From Opitutaceae bacterium (GTDB taxonomy: Bacteria; Verrucomicrobiota; Verrucomicrobiia; Opitutales; Opitutaceae): a stretch of DNA of 64,000 bases. Shown here piece by piece: positions 1 to 10,744 of the stretch (position 1 is the first letter of the stretch; each line of letters begins with the position of its first letter). The notes under the pieces are model-generated. The model saw only the letters and a list, made by a program, of their open reading frames with translations. It had not been told where the DNA came from and made no database searches. A program made the position numbers and the translations under genes. The stretch spans positions 1-64,000 of the forward strand of contig JAEUGY010000047.1 of the NCBI GenBank assembly GCA_016794625.1, given 5' to 3'.

Positions 1-7
1 TTTCGAT

Positions 8-81
8 TGCGGATTGGTGTAACAGCAACGCGGCCGGCTCTGACCCGGCAGTCCCAGGAGCGTCACCTAGATCCGCAGCCA
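8..81 (+). tRNA. tRNA-Gln(CTG), non-canonical elbow
   Basis: Folded by eye. Acceptor TGCGGAT pairs with ATCCGCA, D stem GTGT with ACGC, and anticodon stem GCCGG with CCGGC around loop CTCTGAC (anticodon CTG). CCA is encoded. The D loop AACAGCA has A18-G19, and the T loop AGCGTCA has G55-C56 instead of T55-C56. The T stem has one mismatch. This is the first visible member of the array, which probably continues to the left. Confidence 0.8.
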
Positions 82-87
82 CTTTTT

Positions 88-164
88 CGTCGCGTAGCTC
101 AGTCAGACAGAGCGCCTGCCCGACATGCAGGAGGTCTCCGGTGCAATCCCGGACGCGACGACCA
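88..164 (+). tRNA. tRNA-Val(GAC), non-canonical elbow
   Basis: Acceptor CGTCGCG pairs with CGCGACG, followed by discriminator A and encoded CCA. D stem GCTC/GAGC encloses loop AGTCAGACA, where the usual GG is replaced by AG. Anticodon stem CCTGC/GCAGG holds loop CCGACAT (anticodon GAC), with C instead of the near-universal T33. T stem TCCGG/CCGGA holds loop TGCAATC, so position 55 is G. Confidence 0.8.
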
Positions 165-166
165 AG

Positions 167-255
167 GGAGAACAAACCGTTCGAGGAACGGGACCGGCTT
201 GAATCCGGATCGGCGGGCCCGTCCCGCTGGGGAGCGTGACCTCTGTTCTCCGCCA
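167..255 (+). tRNA. tRNA-Ser(TGA), class II, non-canonical elbow
   Basis: Class II tRNA starting two bases after the previous CCA. Acceptor GGAGAAC pairs with GTTCTCC, then G73 and encoded CCA. The anticodon loop CTTGAAT gives TGA, and a GC-rich long variable arm is present. The D arm folds as CCGTT/AACGG around a tiny loop CGAGG. T loop AGCGTGA has G55-C56. It is identical to the T loop of the last Ser gene in the array. Confidence 0.8.
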
Positions 256-261
256 TTTTTT

Positions 262-336
262 GCCGCCGAAGCGTAGTCAGCGACGCATCCCGTTGGTATC
301 GGGAAGAGGAGGGTGCATCTCCCTCCGGTGGCTCCA
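262..336 (+). tRNA. tRNA-Thr(GGT), non-canonical elbow
   Basis: Acceptor GCCGCCG pairs with CGGTGGC (one G-T), discriminator T, CCA encoded. D stem GCGT/ACGC holds loop AGTCAGCG. Anticodon stem TCCCG/CGGGA holds loop TTGGTAT, anticodon GGT. T stem GAGGG/CCCTC holds loop TGCATCT, with G55. Two other Thr genes of the array share the GCGT/ACGY D arm, which suggests duplication. Confidence 0.85.
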
Positions 337-345
337 CTGCTTCAC

Positions 346-421
346 TGGCCTGTAGCTTAGCGTGCAGAGCACCGGACTCATAATCCGAGAGGCGTCGGCG
401 CAAATCCGACCGGGCCAACCA
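346..421 (+). tRNA. tRNA-Met(CAT), non-canonical elbow
   Basis: Acceptor TGGCCTG pairs with CGGGCCA, discriminator A, CCA encoded. The anticodon loop CTCATAA gives CAT. This could be elongator Met or, if the C were lysidinylated, Ile2. The sequence alone does not decide. D stem GCTT/GAGC holds loop AGCGTGCA, which has T-G rather than A-G at the elbow. T stem GTCGG/CCGAC holds loop CGCAAAT with G55. Confidence 0.8.
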
Positions 422-429
422 AACGTTAT

Positions 430-515
430 GCGGATGTGGCGAAACAGGAGACGCAGCAGGGCGAGAACCTGCCGGTGGCAACATCATGGAGGTGCAAATC
501 CTCTCATCCGCACCA
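430..515 (+). tRNA. tRNA-Leu(GAG), class II, non-canonical elbow
   Basis: Acceptor GCGGATG pairs with CATCCGC, discriminator A, CCA encoded. Anticodon stem GCAGG/CCTGC holds loop GCGAGAA (anticodon GAG), with C at position 33. A variable arm of Leu type follows. The D loop includes AAACAGGAG, so GG becomes AG. The T loop is TGCAAAT with G55. Confidence 0.8.
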
Positions 516-527
516 CTTCTTCCTTAC

Positions 528-613
528 GCCAGCGTGGCTCACTGGGAATCTAGCAATCTGGCTCCACTTAAAATGGATGAACCTTAGGGAGTGCAAGTCT
601 CCCCGCCGGCACC
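528..613 (+). tRNA. tRNA-Leu(TAA)-like, extended D arm
   Basis: Acceptor GCCAGCG pairs with CGCCGGC (one A.C mismatch). Anticodon loop CTTAAAA gives TAA. T stem GGGAG/CTCCC holds loop TGCAAGT. Seven rather than two bases separate the acceptor from the D stem CTGG/CTGG, and the D loop has TAG at the elbow. The 3' end reads ACCC, so no exact CCA is encoded. It shares this architecture with the genes at 711 and 804. Confidence 0.65.
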
Positions 614-622
614 CACACCTTT

Positions 623-697
623 GCTCCGTAAGCGTAGACAGCGACGTTCCCCCCTTGTAAGGCGGAGAGCCCGGCGCACATCCGGGACGGAGCTCCA
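623..697 (+). tRNA. tRNA-Thr(TGT), non-canonical elbow
   Basis: Perfect acceptor GCTCCGT/ACGGAGC, discriminator T, CCA encoded. D stem GCGT/ACGT holds loop AGACAGCG. Anticodon loop CTTGTAA gives TGT, on a stem with one C.C mismatch. T stem CCCGG/CCGGG holds loop CGCACAT with G55 and an unusual C at position 58. Confidence 0.8.
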
Positions 698-710
698 TTT
701 GCAGTGTAGT

Positions 711-793
711 GGCCGCGCGGTTCACCCGGAATAGCAGACGGGGTCTACTTAAACCGGAACAGCCTTGGGAGTGCGATTCTCCCCGCGGTCACC
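711..793 (+). tRNA. tRNA-Leu-like, anticodon probably TAA
   Basis: Acceptor GGCCGCG pairs with CGCGGTC (one G-T). D stem CCCG/CGGG holds loop GAATAGCAGA. T stem GGGAG/CTCCC holds loop TGCGATT with G55. The anticodon stem is poor: it has mismatches around loop CTTAAAC, which reads as TAA if folded like its relatives. The 3' end is ACCC without an exact CCA. It may be decaying, or its anticodon may be misassigned. Confidence 0.55.
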
Positions 794-803
794 CATCAAT
801 TTT

Positions 804-888
804 GCCGACGTGGTTTACTGGGAATTTAGGAGACTGGCTCCGCTCAGAACGGATGAGCCTTGGGGGTGCAAGTCCCCCCGTCGGCACC
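804..888 (+). tRNA. tRNA-Leu(CAG)-like, extended D arm
   Basis: Perfect acceptor GCCGACG/CGTCGGC. Anticodon loop CTCAGAA gives CAG. T stem GGGGG/CCCCC holds loop TGCAAGT with G55. As in the gene at 528, seven bases precede the D stem CTGG/CTGG. The D loop GAATTTAGGAGA contains the A-G elbow pair. The transcript would end ACCCC, so CCA would have to be added or trimmed to. Confidence 0.7.
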
Positions 889-895
889 CCTTCAT

Positions 896-969
896 CTTCT
901 CATCGTCCAACAGCAGGACGCGAGCGTGCGAAGCTCGAAATCCAGGTGCGAGTCCTGGTGAGAAGACCA
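896..969 (+). tRNA. tRNA-Arg(GCG), non-canonical elbow
   Basis: Perfect acceptor CTTCTCA/TGAGAAG, discriminator A, CCA encoded. D stem GTCC/GGAC holds loop AACAGCA. Anticodon stem CGAGC/GCTCG holds loop GTGCGAA, anticodon GCG. T stem CCAGG/CCTGG holds loop TGCGAGT. Bacteria normally read CGY codons with an ACG anticodon edited to inosine, so a GCG reader is unusual. Confidence 0.85.
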
Positions 970-977
970 CTTTCCCT

Positions 978-1052
978 GCTCCCGAAGCGTAGACAGCGAC
1001 GCATCGCACTCGTAATGCGAGGAGTCCGGCGCACATCCGGATGGGAGCTCCA
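978..1052 (+). tRNA. tRNA-Thr(CGT), non-canonical elbow
   Basis: Acceptor GCTCCCG pairs with TGGGAGC, discriminator T, CCA encoded. D stem GCGT/ACGC holds loop AGACAGCG. Anticodon stem TCGCA/TGCGA holds loop CTCGTAA, anticodon CGT. T stem TCCGG/CCGGA holds loop CGCACAT. This is the same T loop as Thr(TGT) at 623, consistent with a shared origin. Confidence 0.85.
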
Positions 1053-1058
1053 TTTTTT

Positions 1059-1131
1059 CCCCGCGTGGCTCGAACAGATAGGCGATCGCCTTCTAAGCGG
1101 TTCCATGAAGGTGCAAGTCCTTCCGCGGGGA
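1059..1131 (+). tRNA. tRNA-Arg(TCT), non-canonical elbow, no CCA
   Basis: Perfect acceptor CCCCGCG/CGCGGGG, discriminator A, followed by CGA instead of CCA. Anticodon stem ATCGC/GCGGT holds loop CTTCTAA, anticodon TCT. The D loop reads GAACAGATA, which matches the usual AGTTGGATA type with AG in place of GG. T stem GAAGG/CCTTC holds loop TGCAAGT with G55. The D stem has only about three pairs. Confidence 0.75.
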
Positions 1132-1135
1132 CGAT

Positions 1136-1212
1136 GCGCCCGTCGGCAAACAGAAGTCATCCTCGGTCCTAACGAGGCAAGAGTCCCGGTGCAAATCCGG
1201 GCGGGCGCACCA
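1136..1212 (+). tRNA. tRNA-Arg(CCT), non-canonical elbow
   Basis: Perfect acceptor GCGCCCG/CGGGCGC, discriminator A, CCA encoded. Anticodon stem CCTCG/CGAGG holds loop GTCCTAA, anticodon CCT. The D loop AAACAGAA has A18-G19. T stem CCCGG/CCGGG holds loop TGCAAAT with G55-C56. Confidence 0.85.
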
Positions 1213-1219
1213 ACGTCTT

Positions 1220-1294
1220 CTCCGCGTGGTGGAATTTATACCATACGAGGCTTCGAACCTCGGGGTCCGGGCGAGAATCCCGGCGCGGGGTCCA
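1220..1294 (+). tRNA. tRNA-Arg(TCG), divergent elbow
   Basis: Acceptor CTCCGCG pairs with CGCGGGG (one T-G), discriminator T, CCA encoded. D stem TGGT/ACCA holds loop GGAATTTAT, which lacks the A-G seen in other members. Anticodon stem CGAGG/CCTCG holds loop CTTCGAA, anticodon TCG. T stem CCGGG/CCCGG holds loop CGAGAAT, with G55 but A56 instead of C56. Its elbow is the most divergent in the array. Confidence 0.75.
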
Positions 1295-1303
1295 CTTTCT
1301 TTT

Positions 1304-1393
1304 GGAAGGCAAAGCCGCCGAGGTGCGGTGCCCGGTTGGAAACCGGCGCGAGCGCGTTCCGCGCTTCCGGGGCAGGACCGGCGCCTTCCGCCA
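1304..1393 (+). tRNA. tRNA-Ser(GGA), class II, non-canonical elbow
   Basis: Perfect acceptor GGAAGGC/GCCTTCC, G73, CCA encoded. Anticodon loop TTGGAAA gives GGA. There is a long GC-rich variable arm. The D arm folds as CCGC/GCGG around CGAGGT, a compact loop shared in style with the other two Ser genes. T loop GGCAGGA has G55-C56. Confidence 0.8.
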
Positions 1394-1403
1394 GTTTCAG
1401 TTT

Positions 1404-1493
1404 GGAGGATGAATCGACCGAGCGGTCGACCTCGCTTCGAAAGCGAAGGGGCGGCTCCGCACCGCTGGGGAGCGTGACCTCCGTCCTCCGCCA
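1404..1493 (+). tRNA. tRNA-Ser(CGA), class II, non-canonical elbow
   Basis: Acceptor GGAGGAT pairs with GTCCTCC, G73, CCA encoded. Anticodon loop TTCGAAA gives CGA on stem TCGC/GCGA. D stem TCGA/TCGA holds loop CCGAGCGG. T loop AGCGTGA has G55-C56. It is the last gene of the visible array and lies 38 bp before the HNH start codon. Confidence 0.8.
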
Positions 1494-1531
1494 ATTGATA
1501 CCACGAAGACGAGCACACCGAACCTTTCAAC

Positions 1532-5264: not shown

Positions 5265-6644
5265 CTACGGGTTGACCAACACGGTCGCGGTGACATCGAC
5301 GTCGGCGCGTTCGATCCGGCCCTTGGCCACCTGGGCCGGCACGAGCAGTCCGGCTGAATTGGTCCCGGGCTTCATGAGCAGGCGGGTCAGGCCGTCGACC
5401 GCCACGCCACGGTTGCTGGGCTGCCAGAGGTCGCCGCCGGTGATCCACACGTCCGCAACGGAGCGGCACCAGAGCATGGGCCGGGCAAAGGAGAAGGCGT
5501 TGAGGTCGTGGAGATAACAGGGGCCTTCGATCGCGAGGTCGGGAGCGTAGAGGCCGGTGATGCCCACGAGCCCGGACGCGGCGGCGTTGCCGAAGCGCAC
5601 GCCGGCAAACCGGCCGCTGGCGGACTGGAGGGCGAGCACGGCGAAGTCGGCGGTGTTGTCGTAGGTTTCACCGGTCTTGAAGAGCGCGGAGGCCTGGGCG
5701 CGGCTGACAAAGGTCTCCGTACCATTGCCACCGAGGGCGGCCGGGACTTTGTCGAGGGGCATCACGCCCACTGCGATGCCGGCGGCGTCGAGCTGGGCCT
5801 GGCTGTAGCCCAGCTGGAGCAGGCGGCCGGCGGGGATGACGGCGTTGCCCTGGCCGACGGAGAACGCCGAGACATTGGTCGTGGAGTCGGCTCCGACCAG
5901 ATAGAACGACGCGTGGCCTTTCATGTAGGTGACGGCCTGGTTGTACTTGAGCGGAACCGCGGGTCCGGAGGCCTGGCTGAGCCGGACGGTGAGTGAACCG
6001 GGACCGGAAAACTCGATCTGCACAATGTCGTCACTCAGGTCGATGAACGAAACCCGGGTCACCTGGCCGGCGTCGGCGGTCACTGTGCAGGCCGGCCCCG
6101 TCATCAGCACCTGGTCATAGGTATTGCCGTTCGGGTGACGGATGTTCTGCCACTCGGGCAGGGATTCGGCCGCTCCGCGCACCTTGGTGGTGATGGTGGG
6201 CGCGACGATCACTGGAGAGGTCTCGAGGGAGGTGCTATCCGACGCCAGCACCGCGCTGTAGAGACCGGCGTCGGCCGCCTCCAGCGCCGCGAACGAGAGC
6301 GACGCGGCGGTCGCCCCGGTGACCGCGCTGCCTTCACGCATCCATTGAATGGAGACGGGCGCAGCCCCGGTCGCGGCGACACTCAACGAGGTGGCGCTGC
6401 CGGCCGCGACCACGCGGGCGGTGGGGGCGGAGGACACCGTCACCGCCGCGGTCACGGCGGTCCGTGTCCGGTTGCCGGCGGCGTCGTAGGTGTAGGTGAT
6501 GACCCGGCCGCCGGGCAGGGCGGCCTTGGTGACGCGCCCGGCGGCATCCCGCGTGAAGACCGCGGCCGCGCCGGAGGCGTCGGAGGAGAAGATGAGGCCA
6601 AGGGCCACCAGGGCGAAGGCCGACCAGACGGTGCGCGTGCTCAT
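5265..6644 (-). CDS. secreted protein with one YD repeat and an Ig-like domain
   Basis: 459 residues with a signal peptide (about 1-26, ending near DASGAAA). A single YD-type repeat follows (VFTRDAAGRV ... YTYDAAGNRTR, about 29-60), then an Ig-like domain (about 70-148, with the DAGLYSAV signature). The remaining 300 residues are of unknown fold. The gene starts 11 bp after the stop of the large RHS gene, so the two form an operon. The lone YD repeat suggests that it was derived from, or attaches to, the RHS neighbour. No toxin, immunity or enzyme motif is seen. An extracellular or cell-surface location is likely. Confidence 0.75.
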   Translation of the reverse strand: MSTRTVWSAFALVALGLIFSSDASGAAAVFTRDAAGRVTKAALPGGRVITYTYDAAGNRTRTAVTAAVTVSSAPTARVVAAGSATSLSVAATGAAPVSIQWMREGSAVTGATAASLSFAALEAADAGLYSAVLASDSTSLETSPVIVAPTITTKVRGAAESLPEWQNIRHPNGNTYDQVLMTGPACTVTADAGQVTRVSFIDLSDDIVQIEFSGPGSLTVRLSQASGPAVPLKYNQAVTYMKGHASFYLVGADSTTNVSAFSVGQGNAVIPAGRLLQLGYSQAQLDAAGIAVGVMPLDKVPAALGGNGTETFVSRAQASALFKTGETYDNTADFAVLALQSASGRFAGVRFGNAAASGLVGITGLYAPDLAIEGPCYLHDLNAFSFARPMLWCRSVADVWITGGDLWQPSNRGVAVDGLTRLLMKPGTNSAGLLVPAQVAKGRIERADVDVTATVLVNP

Positions 6645-6655
6645 GAGGATTCGCG

Positions 6656-9600
6656 TTAGATGGGTTTCTGGGTGCCGCTCGGTTTGCCGGGCGGGGTCAT
6701 GCCAAGTTCCTGCATGACCTGGTTGAGGTTCTTGCCCGTACGGTCGCAGAGGGTTTCCAGCGCCTCGGGATCGCCGTCCTTGGCCCGTTTGCGCACATCG
6801 GCCAGGGAGTCGTCGAGGTTGGGATTGCGGCGCCCTCCCAGCACGATGTCGGTTACATTGCCCGCCGTGCCGGTGAGCCCCGTGGTGATCGTCTGCACGC
6901 CCTCCCCGGTGTTGCCGTTCAACACCTGCACGAGGCCTTTGCCGGTCGAGTAAACCGGGCCGTAGACGGGATGGAAGCCCACCGCCGGACCAAGGACTTC
7001 ATCGGCGGACTTCACGCCCTCGATGAACTTGTCGCGGATCGCCTCGGGCAGACTGCTGACGTCGGAGGATGGCTGGCCGTTCGGGCTGCCCGGGGGCAGG
7101 GAGGTGCCGTCGAGGCTGATGGTGTCGCCGCTGACCCCGGCCAGGCCGCGGGGATCGATCCGGGTGGCGGGATCATTGCCGGCGTAGGCGTAGAGGTTGA
7201 CGCCACCGTGGTGGCCGATCGGATCGCGCTGGAAGAATCGACCGAGCGTGGCGTCGTAGTGGCGGCGCAGCATGAAGAACTGGCCCTGGCCGTCGTCGAT
7301 GACGCCATATTCACCGACGAAGGTGAACGGATTGCGCCAGGTTCCCGTACGCTTGAGCACCTCGCCAAACGGGGTGTAGGCGTACGACGCCACGACGGTG
7401 CCGGCGGCCTGGGTGACCGCGAGCACGGAGCCGAGGTGATCGGCGTGCAGGTATCCGTAGCCGGTCGCCGGTGTGCCGGTGGCGATGACGCGCTGGTTGG
7501 CCCAGATGTGCACGGACATCACCTGGCCCGCGGCGTTGGTTTCATAGAGCAAACGTCCGTCGGTGTCATGGTGCAGCCGTGACGTCGCACTGCCGGCAAC
7601 CACCTTGGTCCGCCAGCCGAGGCCATTGTAGGTAAAGGTGGTGGTGACGCCGCCGCGGACAAGGGAGGTCATGCGATTGCAGGCGTCGTAAGCCGCCGTC
7701 AGGCGCCAGGTGCTCCCCCCGGTGAGATTGCCATCGTCGTCCGAAGTGCAGGCCGTTCCGGAGGTGTCGATGACCTGATTCGTCGCGGCATAGGCGGCGA
7801 TGGTATTGGACAACGCCGGGACGGCCTCCAGGGGCCAGAGCCCGTCGACCCGCTGGACCCGGCCGAGGGCATCGCGCGTGATGACCAGATCCGACAGGGT
7901 CGCCACACCCTGGGCGTGCACGAGTCGCGTGAGGCGGTTTTCGAGGTCGTAGGTCATCTGACTGGTGACGCCGTTGGCTCGCGACAGACCGGTGAGATTG
8001 TCGGAGGCGTCGTACGTGAAATCGACGGTGCCTCCGCTCCAGACGACCCGGGCGAGCAATCCGCGGTCATTGTACGTGTGGACCACGGTCTCTCCGCCGT
8101 ACGCCAGCGTGGCGAGCCGGCCGGACGTGTCGTAGGTGACCTGGGTCTGCTGACCATCGGGATAAGTCAGACGCGTCGGATTCCCCTGATTCCCATACGC
8201 GACGTCCAGGGTTTCCGGGCCGTCCACCACCCGTGTGATCCGTCCGGCCGCGTCATGGGTGAAGTCGGACGTCTGGTTGGGCGCGGCCAGACGGGTGAGT
8301 CGACCCGCGCTGTCCCGCGTCGCGGTCAGCACCTGGTTGCGGGCATTGGTGACCGTGACCGGGCGGCTGAGTTCGTCGTAGGACAGACGGACCTGTTTCC
8401 CTGCGGGATCGGTCACGCGAACCAGTTCACCCCGCACATCATAAGAGAAGGCGGTCCGCCCGGCCGCGGGGTCCTCCATGGCCTCGAGCCGGCCCTGGGT
8501 GTCGCGGACAAACGTGGTGCGCGGCCCGTCGGTCGGACCGATCGTACGCAGCAAGTCCTCATCGTCATAGGTCAGGTCGATTTTGCTGCCGTCCGGGTGC
8601 GTGATGAGGGTGCGATTGCCATTTCCGTCGTAGGCGAAGGTGGTGGTCTGTCCCAGCGCATCCGTCGAGCGGGTGAGAAGACCACGACTGTCGTAGGCGA
8701 AGGTGCGTTTGCCGCCGCCGGGCAGCGTGAGCTCCTGCACCCGGTCATTGGCATCATAGACCAGCGTGGTGGTGCCTCCGGAGCCCGTGCGGATCGACGC
8801 CACGCGTCCAGCGAGGTCGTAGGTGAAGGTCGTAGTGACCCCTCCAGGACGCGTGATCGTGCTGAGCTGGCCCGCCGTGTAGGTGTACGTGGTCGTGCCC
8901 TGTCCCGGCGGGGTGCATGAAGCGAGCTGGCCCTGGCTGTGGTAGGTCGAGGTGGTGACCAGACCGGTGGGGTCTGTCCGCGTCAGGAGACGGTTGGCGG
9001 AGTCATAGGTATAGCGTGTGACCCGTCCGGCGGGGTCGGTCGAGGAGAGCAGGTTGTCGCGGCTGTCATAAGTCATGGTCCAGACCTTGCCGGCGCGATC
9101 AGTCAGCTGGGTCAGGTTGCCGCGGGCATCATAGGTGTGCAGGGTGTTGCGCTCCGTGGGATCGACGATCTTGGTCAGCGCGCCGCCTTCATAAACATAG
9201 TAGGTGGCCTCCTCCACGTTCTGGGCGGCGGGCTGAATGCCGGATTGATCGGCGAGGATACGGCGCAGGCGTTCCCGCGGAGAGATCCCGGACCTGCTGG
9301 CGAGTCCAGGCCCGCCGGCGTCGTCCAGCTCCTGCAACAACTGGGCGGCGGCGGCTTCGTCCACCGAGATGCCGCGAATGATGCCACGCAGCCGGTAGAG
9401 AGCGTCGTGGGCGTACTCGGTGACGGCTCCAGCACGATTGGTGACGCTGGCCACCACCACACCGGCCTGACTGGTTTCGTCGTAGACCAGTTTTACCGGA
9501 TCGTTGTCCGACCGTGCGTCCTGCTGTGAGACCACGCGACCGGAGCTGTCGTAGGTGTTTTCAAAGACGATCCGATTTTCACCATCCACGCACGTCAAGG

Positions 9601-10420
9601 CTCGTCCCGCAGCGTCGTAGGTGAACGTGATGCGATGACCGGCGGCGTCGGTGAACTGGCTTAGATCGCCGCCGGCGGAGTAGGTCAAGGTGCAGCGCCG
9701 GGCGGCCGAGTCGGTCACGGTGCTGATGCGATTGTTGCCGTCGTAGGCGAGATCCAAGGTGCGACCGCTGACCGCCTCGGTGATCCGGGTCACCCGACCC
9801 TGGGCGTTGGTGGCATAGGTCAGTGCCTGACCTTCGGCGTCGCGTTGTTCGAGCAGCGCGCCCGTGCTGGAGAATTTCCATATGACCCGTGATTTCAGCG
9901 ACAGGGAGTAGGTGCCGTCGCCCGCCTTGACTAGCGTGGCGCCGGTCAGGGCGGCGTCGGCGGAGGTGAACGTGGTGCCATTGCCGGTGAAGCCATTGCT
10001 GCGACTGGCGGACCAGACGACCTTGGGTGTGGCCGGAGTGGCGAGGTCGAGTCGAGCTTCATGGTTGTGCTCCCAGCCCCGACCGACCACCCCGGCGACG
10101 GGTTTGAGCGAGTAGTAGCGCAGGGTGAAATCCAGTGAGCGGGCGCCCCGCAGCGTGAGCAGCGTGCGCTGACAGATCTGGGCGCCCGTGGCGAAGTCGA
10201 TCGGATCCGCGCCGGAGCGGCCGACCGAGCCGCTTTCATCATCCGGGTCGGCGGTGGAAACCGTGGTCGACGCGCCCTCGCCACTGATCGGACCGGAGGA
10301 CGTGGGCAGGGGACCGAGCAGAGCCCAGTCCCAGTCGCACTCGGTGGCGAGGAAGAGCGGACTCAGGGCGAGCAGGATGAAAACGCCGTAGCGTGAACCA
10401 ACGCGGCCGGTGGAGCTCAT
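6656..10420 (-). CDS. large RHS/YD-repeat secreted protein
   Basis: About 1254 residues from the ATG at 10420. That start gives a signal sequence (GVFILLALSPLFLATEC) and is preferred over one 63 bp upstream. The region from about 80 to 1080 is dominated by YD repeats of the type YDxxGRVTRxT. They end in a typical RHS core, with YAYTPFGEVLKR, then FxxRDPIGHHGGVNLYAYAG and ATRIDPRGLAG. RHS repeats form a closed shell that can enclose a C-terminal payload. The C-terminal 150 residues after that core contain a Gly-rich stretch and no known toxin motif. No immunity gene is obvious. The next gene also has a YD repeat. Confidence 0.85.
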   Translation of the reverse strand: MSSTGRVGSRYGVFILLALSPLFLATECDWDWALLGPLPTSSGPISGEGASTTVSTADPDDESGSVGRSGADPIDFATGAQICQRTLLTLRGARSLDFTLRYYSLKPVAGVVGRGWEHNHEARLDLATPATPKVVWSASRSNGFTGNGTTFTSADAALTGATLVKAGDGTYSLSLKSRVIWKFSSTGALLEQRDAEGQALTYATNAQGRVTRITEAVSGRTLDLAYDGNNRISTVTDSAARRCTLTYSAGGDLSQFTDAAGHRITFTYDAAGRALTCVDGENRIVFENTYDSSGRVVSQQDARSDNDPVKLVYDETSQAGVVVASVTNRAGAVTEYAHDALYRLRGIIRGISVDEAAAAQLLQELDDAGGPGLASRSGISPRERLRRILADQSGIQPAAQNVEEATYYVYEGGALTKIVDPTERNTLHTYDARGNLTQLTDRAGKVWTMTYDSRDNLLSSTDPAGRVTRYTYDSANRLLTRTDPTGLVTTSTYHSQGQLASCTPPGQGTTTYTYTAGQLSTITRPGGVTTTFTYDLAGRVASIRTGSGGTTTLVYDANDRVQELTLPGGGKRTFAYDSRGLLTRSTDALGQTTTFAYDGNGNRTLITHPDGSKIDLTYDDEDLLRTIGPTDGPRTTFVRDTQGRLEAMEDPAAGRTAFSYDVRGELVRVTDPAGKQVRLSYDELSRPVTVTNARNQVLTATRDSAGRLTRLAAPNQTSDFTHDAAGRITRVVDGPETLDVAYGNQGNPTRLTYPDGQQTQVTYDTSGRLATLAYGGETVVHTYNDRGLLARVVWSGGTVDFTYDASDNLTGLSRANGVTSQMTYDLENRLTRLVHAQGVATLSDLVITRDALGRVQRVDGLWPLEAVPALSNTIAAYAATNQVIDTSGTACTSDDDGNLTGGSTWRLTAAYDACNRMTSLVRGGVTTTFTYNGLGWRTKVVAGSATSRLHHDTDGRLLYETNAAGQVMSVHIWANQRVIATGTPATGYGYLHADHLGSVLAVTQAAGTVVASYAYTPFGEVLKRTGTWRNPFTFVGEYGVIDDGQGQFFMLRRHYDATLGRFFQRDPIGHHGGVNLYAYAGNDPATRIDPRGLAGVSGDTISLDGTSLPPGSPNGQPSSDVSSLPEAIRDKFIEGVKSADEVLGPAVGFHPVYGPVYSTGKGLVQVLNGNTGEGVQTITTGLTGTAGNVTDIVLGGRRNPNLDDSLADVRKRAKDGDPEALETLCDRTGKNLNQVMQELGMTPPGKPSGTQKPI

Positions 10421-10744
10421 GGTGATGCGCGGGAACTGACATGACCACCGGCCCCCGGAGCCGGTGGCGTCGGATCGGCGCAACCCAAGGCACAGGCGGA
10501 AGGCCCCGCCTGCCGGTGGGTCGGCTGGACCGACCCGGGAAGGGTTTTAGTGGCAGAGGTACAATGGCGCGTTGCGGGGGAGCCTGGCAACGACGACGGT
10601 CGGTCGTGGAAGGGTTAGCATCACGCATTCACATGCTCATAAGAGAATTGCTCGAGCGATGTGCGCATCGCCGGCGGCGTCGACTTCAGGCGATGGATTG
10701 AAGGAGAGCCCCCTGCAGCGGCAGAAATCGCGGTTCCGTTTTGG

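Follow-up and report, generated by a model that had tools for sequence, protein, structure and literature searches.

What kind of tRNA gene does without the G18-Psi55 contact (Psi, pseudouridine) of the tRNA elbow, and why would an entire array of them have replaced it in the same way? Textbooks treat this contact, like the T-Psi-C loop, as nearly invariant among tRNAs. The question is raised by an Opitutaceae bacterium (assembly GCA_016794625.1), in which we analyzed a 64,000-nucleotide stretch (the window) at the start of contig C49 (JAEUGY010000047.1). Positions 8 to 1493 contain 17 tRNA genes on one strand, with gaps of a few bases between them and an encoded CCA in most. Position 55 is G in all 17 T loops, which begin with AGC, TGC, CGC, GGC, or CGA instead of TTC. 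Also, 15 of the 17 D loops have A18-G19, counting three Leu genes (at 528, 711, and 804) with degenerate D arms, for which positions 18 and 19 were assigned by analogy. A18-G19 is missing from Met(CAT) at 346 and from Arg(TCG) at 1220, where position 56 is A, G19 is absent, and the D loop has a T in its place. Both counts were obtained with a parser and by manual folding, and they agree with the original prediction, which had read them from the sequence.

The parser looks for cloverleafs without requiring a canonical elbow, and four class II genes of the window array were read by hand. A cloverleaf with paired stems is supported by the strict-cut matches (11 and 33, versus 0 in shuffles); the 11 are tRNAs in window 1-1500, compared to none in 60 dinucleotide shuffles. 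ARAGORN detects 7 of the 17 genes and Rfam detects 5, probably because their models assume the usual elbow. Because the first tRNA begins at base 8 of the contig, the array is cut on its 5' side. Searching the same genome for the upstream remainder, using the array of a same-genus genome (G001), gave only a short dispersed repeat.

The ordinary tRNAs of this genome are canonical. We compared 38 distinct ordinary tRNAs: T55 is present in every one, and A18/G55 in none. By the same rule, 37 of the 38 have G18-G19, and the remaining one has G18 with an A19-T56 pair. So the altered elbow is not an organism-wide property, and we rejected a whole-genome peculiarity as the explanation; the original prediction had named A18/G55 in ordinary tRNAs as the result that would count against it. 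Several anticodons are found in both sets (such as CTG, GAC, GGT, CAG, TAA, TCG, and TCT), so the array is redundant with the ordinary tRNAs.

Positions 18 and 55 change together, as had been proposed from the window alone. Across roughly 720 distinct tRNAs, pooled from every array and viral locus and counted without correction for descent, 417 have A18/G55 and 221 have G18/U55, while the mixed combinations are nearly absent (2 with G18/G55 and 14 with A18/U55, nearly all of which also contain GG and are ambiguous, as they can be read as G18). These 417 tRNAs thus lack the G18-G19 and T54-U55-C56 combination of elongator tRNAs. Where genes within A18/G55 arrays depart from the pattern, both partners change: this includes Met(CAT) in locus L068 and genes with T55 and G18 in L122, L132, L145, and L150. 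A minority of tRNAs have C or T at position 18 with G55, and these are chiefly Leu(CAG) genes.

The neighboring contact between positions 19 and 56 provides an independent check of the register. Among the 30 tRNAs without C56, 29 have the Watson-Crick partner at position 19. If D loops are dealt out at random, 17.2 are expected, and the maximum in 500 trials was 25. For instance, a T loop with TGG is accompanied by A18-C19, and TGA is accompanied by A18-T19. We therefore rejected misplacement of positions 18 and 55 by the folding, the other outcome that would have spoken against the original prediction. Positions 54 and 58 also vary as a pair, with the combinations T-A (328), A-T (51), C-A (35), and G-G (23); T54 is kept in about 70% of array tRNAs and is absent from about 30%. 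In nearly every array tRNA, the elbow contact is rebuilt as A18-G55, and the 19-56 and 54-58 pairs are free to vary as long as they still match.

The signature is also present in relatives and in viral contigs; the original prediction, made from the sequence alone, had no view of this or of the RNA-repair genes that the locus carries in relatives. The gene adjoining the window array, at 1532-2167, encodes an HNH protein whose clade includes 34 loci in genome contigs and 19 viral contigs of up to 297 kb. The genomes are nearly all from Opitutaceae and other Verrucomicrobiota, and the cultured carriers are Geminisphaera colitermitum TAV2, Ereboglobus sp. PH5-10, Opitutaceae EW11, and Pelagicoccus. 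Most of the HNH loci in bacterial genomes with enough flanking sequence have an A18/G55 array beside the gene. Related arrays are found on two contigs of G001 and on the complete chromosome of a member of the same family (G012), whose array (L067) has about 35-40 tRNAs for 20 amino acids in 3.6 kb. In Opitutaceae, in Pelagicoccus, and in large viral contigs, arrays reach about 40 tRNAs. We also noticed pairs of arrays within a genome (L112 and L136, L117 and L119, and L068 and L100, from G. colitermitum TAV2, the metagenome-assembled genome E14 bin.223, and G001).

Viral contigs with A18/G55 arrays include L140 (205 kb), L145, L150 (which encodes a T4-like portal protein), L244, and L247 (172 kb). 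Two others, L158 and L220, mix both kinds of elbow. Searching the viral contigs with a T-arm pattern gave mostly chance matches; among the matches listed, L220, L244, L247, and L255 were gained. A D-arm pattern was unspecific across 388 genomes of the phylum, where most matches were to ordinary tRNAs containing AGG or arose by chance. In the huge phage records LR745206 and LR756511, there were no parsable tRNAs near the match. The related viral contigs L144 and L146-L149 encode the HNH protein, but the parser found no tRNA array in the stretch covered. A lone A18/G55 tRNA-Tyr(GTA) is identical in two viral contigs (L208:10232-10313 and L210:6050-6131).

Except for the elbow, do these look like tRNAs that could be charged? 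The alanine identity pair G3-U70 is present in 13/13 Ala tRNAs and is confined to them. Discriminator bases are mostly as in the host: T in 13/13 Cys tRNAs, G in 16/16 Asn, 30/31 Gln, and 8/8 Trp tRNAs, and A in 49/49 Leu tRNAs. Many array Met(CAT) tRNAs have C73. The Leu, Ser, and Tyr tRNAs keep their long arms, CCA is encoded in 434 of 466 array tRNAs, and full arrays cover all 20 amino acids. Given that identity elements and CCA are kept, the array tRNAs look charge-competent instead of like debris, as judged from their sequences. We also compared the stems of array tRNAs to those of host tRNAs. In every array tested, amino-acid matches between array tRNAs and their nearest host tRNAs exceeded the mean for shuffled labels (for instance, 8.5 versus 1.9 in G012), and in most arrays tested the excess was about 3- to 8-fold. 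The values for the window array (11 genes), L106, and L145 were within the range of the shuffles. Because the nearest host tRNAs match by amino acid, the array does not look like the product of copying a single founder tRNA.

The gene neighborhood in relatives looks built for surviving tRNA damage. There, the array is followed by the HNH gene, a sigma-70-type factor (23 loci), an uncharacterized protein (8 loci), RtcB (PF01139; 22 loci), a slipin (7 loci), and RlaP (4 loci), and a LysR gene lies upstream of the array in 18 loci. L140 encodes an RNA ligase protein in addition. Array-type RtcB is found in 5 of 6 relatives that have the array or its HNH protein and in 2 of 48 others (p = 4e-5, with kinship ignored). 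Of the loci, 15 (three of them in viral contigs) encode a TROVE protein (Rsr, or Ro60; PF05731) within or next to the array; the window does not. In another locus, L334 (G022:C276), we saw TROVE, RtcB, the uncharacterized protein (226 amino acids), and the LysR gene, and no array was found in the stretch.

Putative Y-RNA genes lie near the TROVE genes, with matches to YrlA at E = 2e-6 and 5e-6, which are below Rfam's gathering score. All nine of the clear tRNA-like modules of these Y RNAs have TTC and GG, which is the canonical elbow. The tRNA mimic is canonical where the array tRNAs are not, a striking internal contrast.

We tentatively favor the following explanation, at somewhat below even probability: the window array is the 3' part of an accessory, near-complete second tRNA set, which is competent for translation and whose changed elbow evades something that reads the canonical elbow. 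When ordinary tRNAs are cut or disabled, by phage defenses, toxins, or competitors, the array would be switched on. Its tRNAs would be charged by the normal synthetases and would keep the ribosome working, while an enzyme that attacks or processes tRNAs via the canonical GG/T-Psi-C elbow would not recognize them. The Y RNA, with its canonical elbow, could serve as a decoy. The spare-set part is well supported by the anatomy of the arrays; the evasion part is less certain. The analysis shows the fold, the coordinated elbow change, the retained identity elements, the distribution, and the gene linkage, and from there we infer expression, charging, use by the ribosome, resistance, and the nature of the attacker. 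As to attackers, tRNA cutting is common in conflicts between bacteria and phages, and phages bring replacement tRNAs and repair enzymes (PMC7824862, PMC10264068). There is also a toxin that cuts tRNA-Arg in the T loop, at the T-Psi step (PMC9086364). A broader claim is that a complete natural set dropped G18-Psi55 for A18-G55 and so became invisible to canonical-elbow enzymes, giving whole-set translation immunity, along with an RNA-repair kit and a Y-RNA decoy, in bacteria and large viruses. We regard this as possible but doubtful.

Several known systems resemble parts of this one. The tRNA array units of Mycobacterium, its plasmids, and its phages (PMC5966550, PMC12803027) are dense and redundant, have an HNH gene in or beside the array, occur on mobile elements, and were suggested to have an anti-defense role; but two plasmid arrays that we parsed have T55 throughout, and the accessible text of these papers does not mention the T loop or RtcB. 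In Anabaena, a silent array (the trn operon) is induced by translation-targeting antibiotics and aids survival, and its repressor also controls rtcB; slipin and HNH genes are shared with our loci as well (PMC10272220). We examined eight related plasmid arrays from cyanobacteria. They have a distant HNH relative alongside, as in our loci, but 106 of their parsed tRNAs are canonical, with A18/G55 only in Ile(GAT) (T loop GGCAGTA, D loop mostly AAAAGTG). Finally, the accessible part of a study of the Salmonella rsr-yrlBA-rtcBA operon (PMC7790460) ties RtcB, Rsr, and Y RNAs to cut tRNAs, to which the operon responds; inhibition of the nuclease by the tRNA-like portion of the Y RNA is a possibility raised by its authors. 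That part of the paper mentions no tRNA array, and the regulator is RtcR, whereas our loci contain a sigma-70-type factor.

Phages offer a further parallel. Some phage tRNAs that replace cut host tRNAs evade anticodon nucleases (PMC10264068). They do so through an altered anticodon loop in some of the tRNAs, whereas our arrays have an altered elbow in nearly all.

Several points weigh against our favored explanation. In the window genome, rtcB is on a different contig, and downstream of the array we found HNH but no other gene of the operon. Of 11 array His tRNAs (from L067, L106, and further arrays), 10 carry A73 instead of the usual C73, which is unusual for charging. We know of no elbow-reading attacker in these hosts. 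Most known tRNA-cutting defenses target the anticodon loop, so a change in the elbow would be useful only if their binding involves the elbow. Also, Streptomyces phage BRock, Arthrobacter phage Atuin, and Tunturiibacter phage Tunturi_5 combine tRNA arrays with a Ro60-like protein and/or an RNA ligase (compare the jumbo phage survey PMC7824862), and yet their elbows are canonical, so the function does not require the elbow change. The similar array of phage S-CBWM1 is canonical as well.

These phages, which seem to manage without an altered elbow, support a serious if unlikely rival, namely that the array is a spare translational set and that its elbow is a neutral founder trait. A18-G55 would be structurally equivalent to the usual contact, fixed early, and kept by descent and gene conversion, with no resistance involved. 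Most cases do fall within one HNH clade, and, judged by their stems, array tRNAs resemble one another about as closely as they resemble host tRNAs. But the 3- to 8-fold excess of amino-acid matches to the host implies that array members descend from different isotypes, in which case the double change was made, or copied in, many times. Nor have the Y RNAs of the same loci drifted, and the cyanobacterial arrays acquired the change in Ile only.

The other serious rival, which we consider quite unlikely, is that the change lets the array escape tRNA modification or quality control by the cell itself, for instance by TruB, by TrmA, or by the Rsr/Y-RNA decay machinery encoded in the locus. The tRNAs would work unmodified or would be spared while damaged canonical tRNAs were removed. 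G55 is chemically unable to become pseudouridine, and T54 is lost as well from about 30% of array tRNAs, though this target of TrmA is kept in the remainder. Similarly, the 15 loci with Rsr in or by the array are consistent with escape from Rsr, and in Deinococcus, Rsr and Y RNA aid PNPase in degrading structured RNA (work cited in PMC7790460). However, Rsr was not seen in the examined stretch of the large arrays L067, L108, L112, and L137.

The original prediction had offered three interpretations: a non-translational set, decoys for tRNA-cutting toxins, or altered-elbow tRNAs that still translate. The last is now the best option. The original prediction also noted the altered T loop of staphylococcal tRNA-Gly. 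That special tRNA serves mainly in cell wall synthesis, outside of translation, and for one amino acid (PMC4810233). We rejected a peptidoglycan role of this type, as full arrays span 20 amino acids. Amino-acid donors that act off the ribosome do not account for the retained identity elements and CCA either, and decoys for tRNA-cutting enzymes would be expected to be canonical, as the Y RNA is; a non-translational set of either kind is improbable. The three poorly folding window Leu genes without CCA might point to a decaying relic, a sequencing error, or a misfolding artifact. For the complete set, this is already refuted: stems are intact and elbow positions change in pairs across dozens of independently assembled genomes and in cultured strains. 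We also rejected pseudogenes as a reading of the array.

Both tRNA arrays with HNH proteins and the RNA-repair gene set are already known. The combination of these with a complete A18-G55 tRNA set was not found in the literature that we searched, which is weak evidence given partial coverage, and a literature search for tRNAs that combine A18 and G55 gave one unrelated paper. Older structural work described selected suppressor tRNAs with non-standard elbows. Here, hundreds of natural tRNAs of almost all isotypes have swapped the contact for another matching pair, which amounts to a direct evolutionary test of what translation needs from the elbow. If the resistance reading is true, it would point to a class of tRNA attackers that read the elbow and would show that a full tRNA set can be re-keyed. 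Because there are cultured carriers, the system can be tested.

The 17 genes of the window array, all on the forward strand, begin with tRNA-Gln(CTG) at 8-81 (T loop AGCGTCA, D loop AACAGCA), which has A18-G55 and A54/T58. It is followed by Val(GAC) at 88-164 (TGCAATC and AGTCAGACA), Ser(TGA) at 167-255 (T loop AGCGTGA; folded, with a long variable arm), Thr(GGT) at 262-336 (TGCATCT and AGTCAGCG), and Met(CAT) at 346-421 (CGCAAAT and AGCGTGCA), which has G55 without A18. Leu(GAG) at 430-515 has TGCAAAT and AACAGGAG. Thr(TGT) at 623-697 and Thr(CGT) at 978-1052 share the T loop CGCACAT and the D loop AGACAGCG. Four Arg genes have the anticodons GCG (896-969; TGCGAGT and AACAGCA), TCT (1059-1132; TGCAAGT and GAACAGAT), CCT (1136-1212; TGCAAAT and AACAGAA), and TCG (1220-1294; CGAGAAT, with G55 and A56, and AATTTATA, whose T is able to pair with A56). 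Ser(GGA) at 1304-1393 (T loop GGCAGGA, with G54/G58) and Ser(CGA) at 1404-1493 (T loop AGCGTGA; hand-read and folded) both have long variable arms. This packing, 17 genes in 1.5 kb, is dense. The HNH gene (HNH_4; also on the forward strand) comes next, directly downstream as its clade is in relatives. Farther downstream, at 5265-10483 on the reverse strand, are RHS-repeat proteins with no obvious link to the array.

The remaining three genes are Leu tRNA-like and were read by hand: Leu(TAA)-like at 528-614 (T loop TGCAAGT; weak fold), another Leu(TAA)-like at 711-794 (TGCGATT), and Leu(CAG)-like at 804-889 (TGCAAGT; long D loop). In all three, the D arm contains additional bases, the fold is weak, and the 3' end reads ACCC instead of ACCA. 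These genes may be degenerate, or they may follow another processing route.

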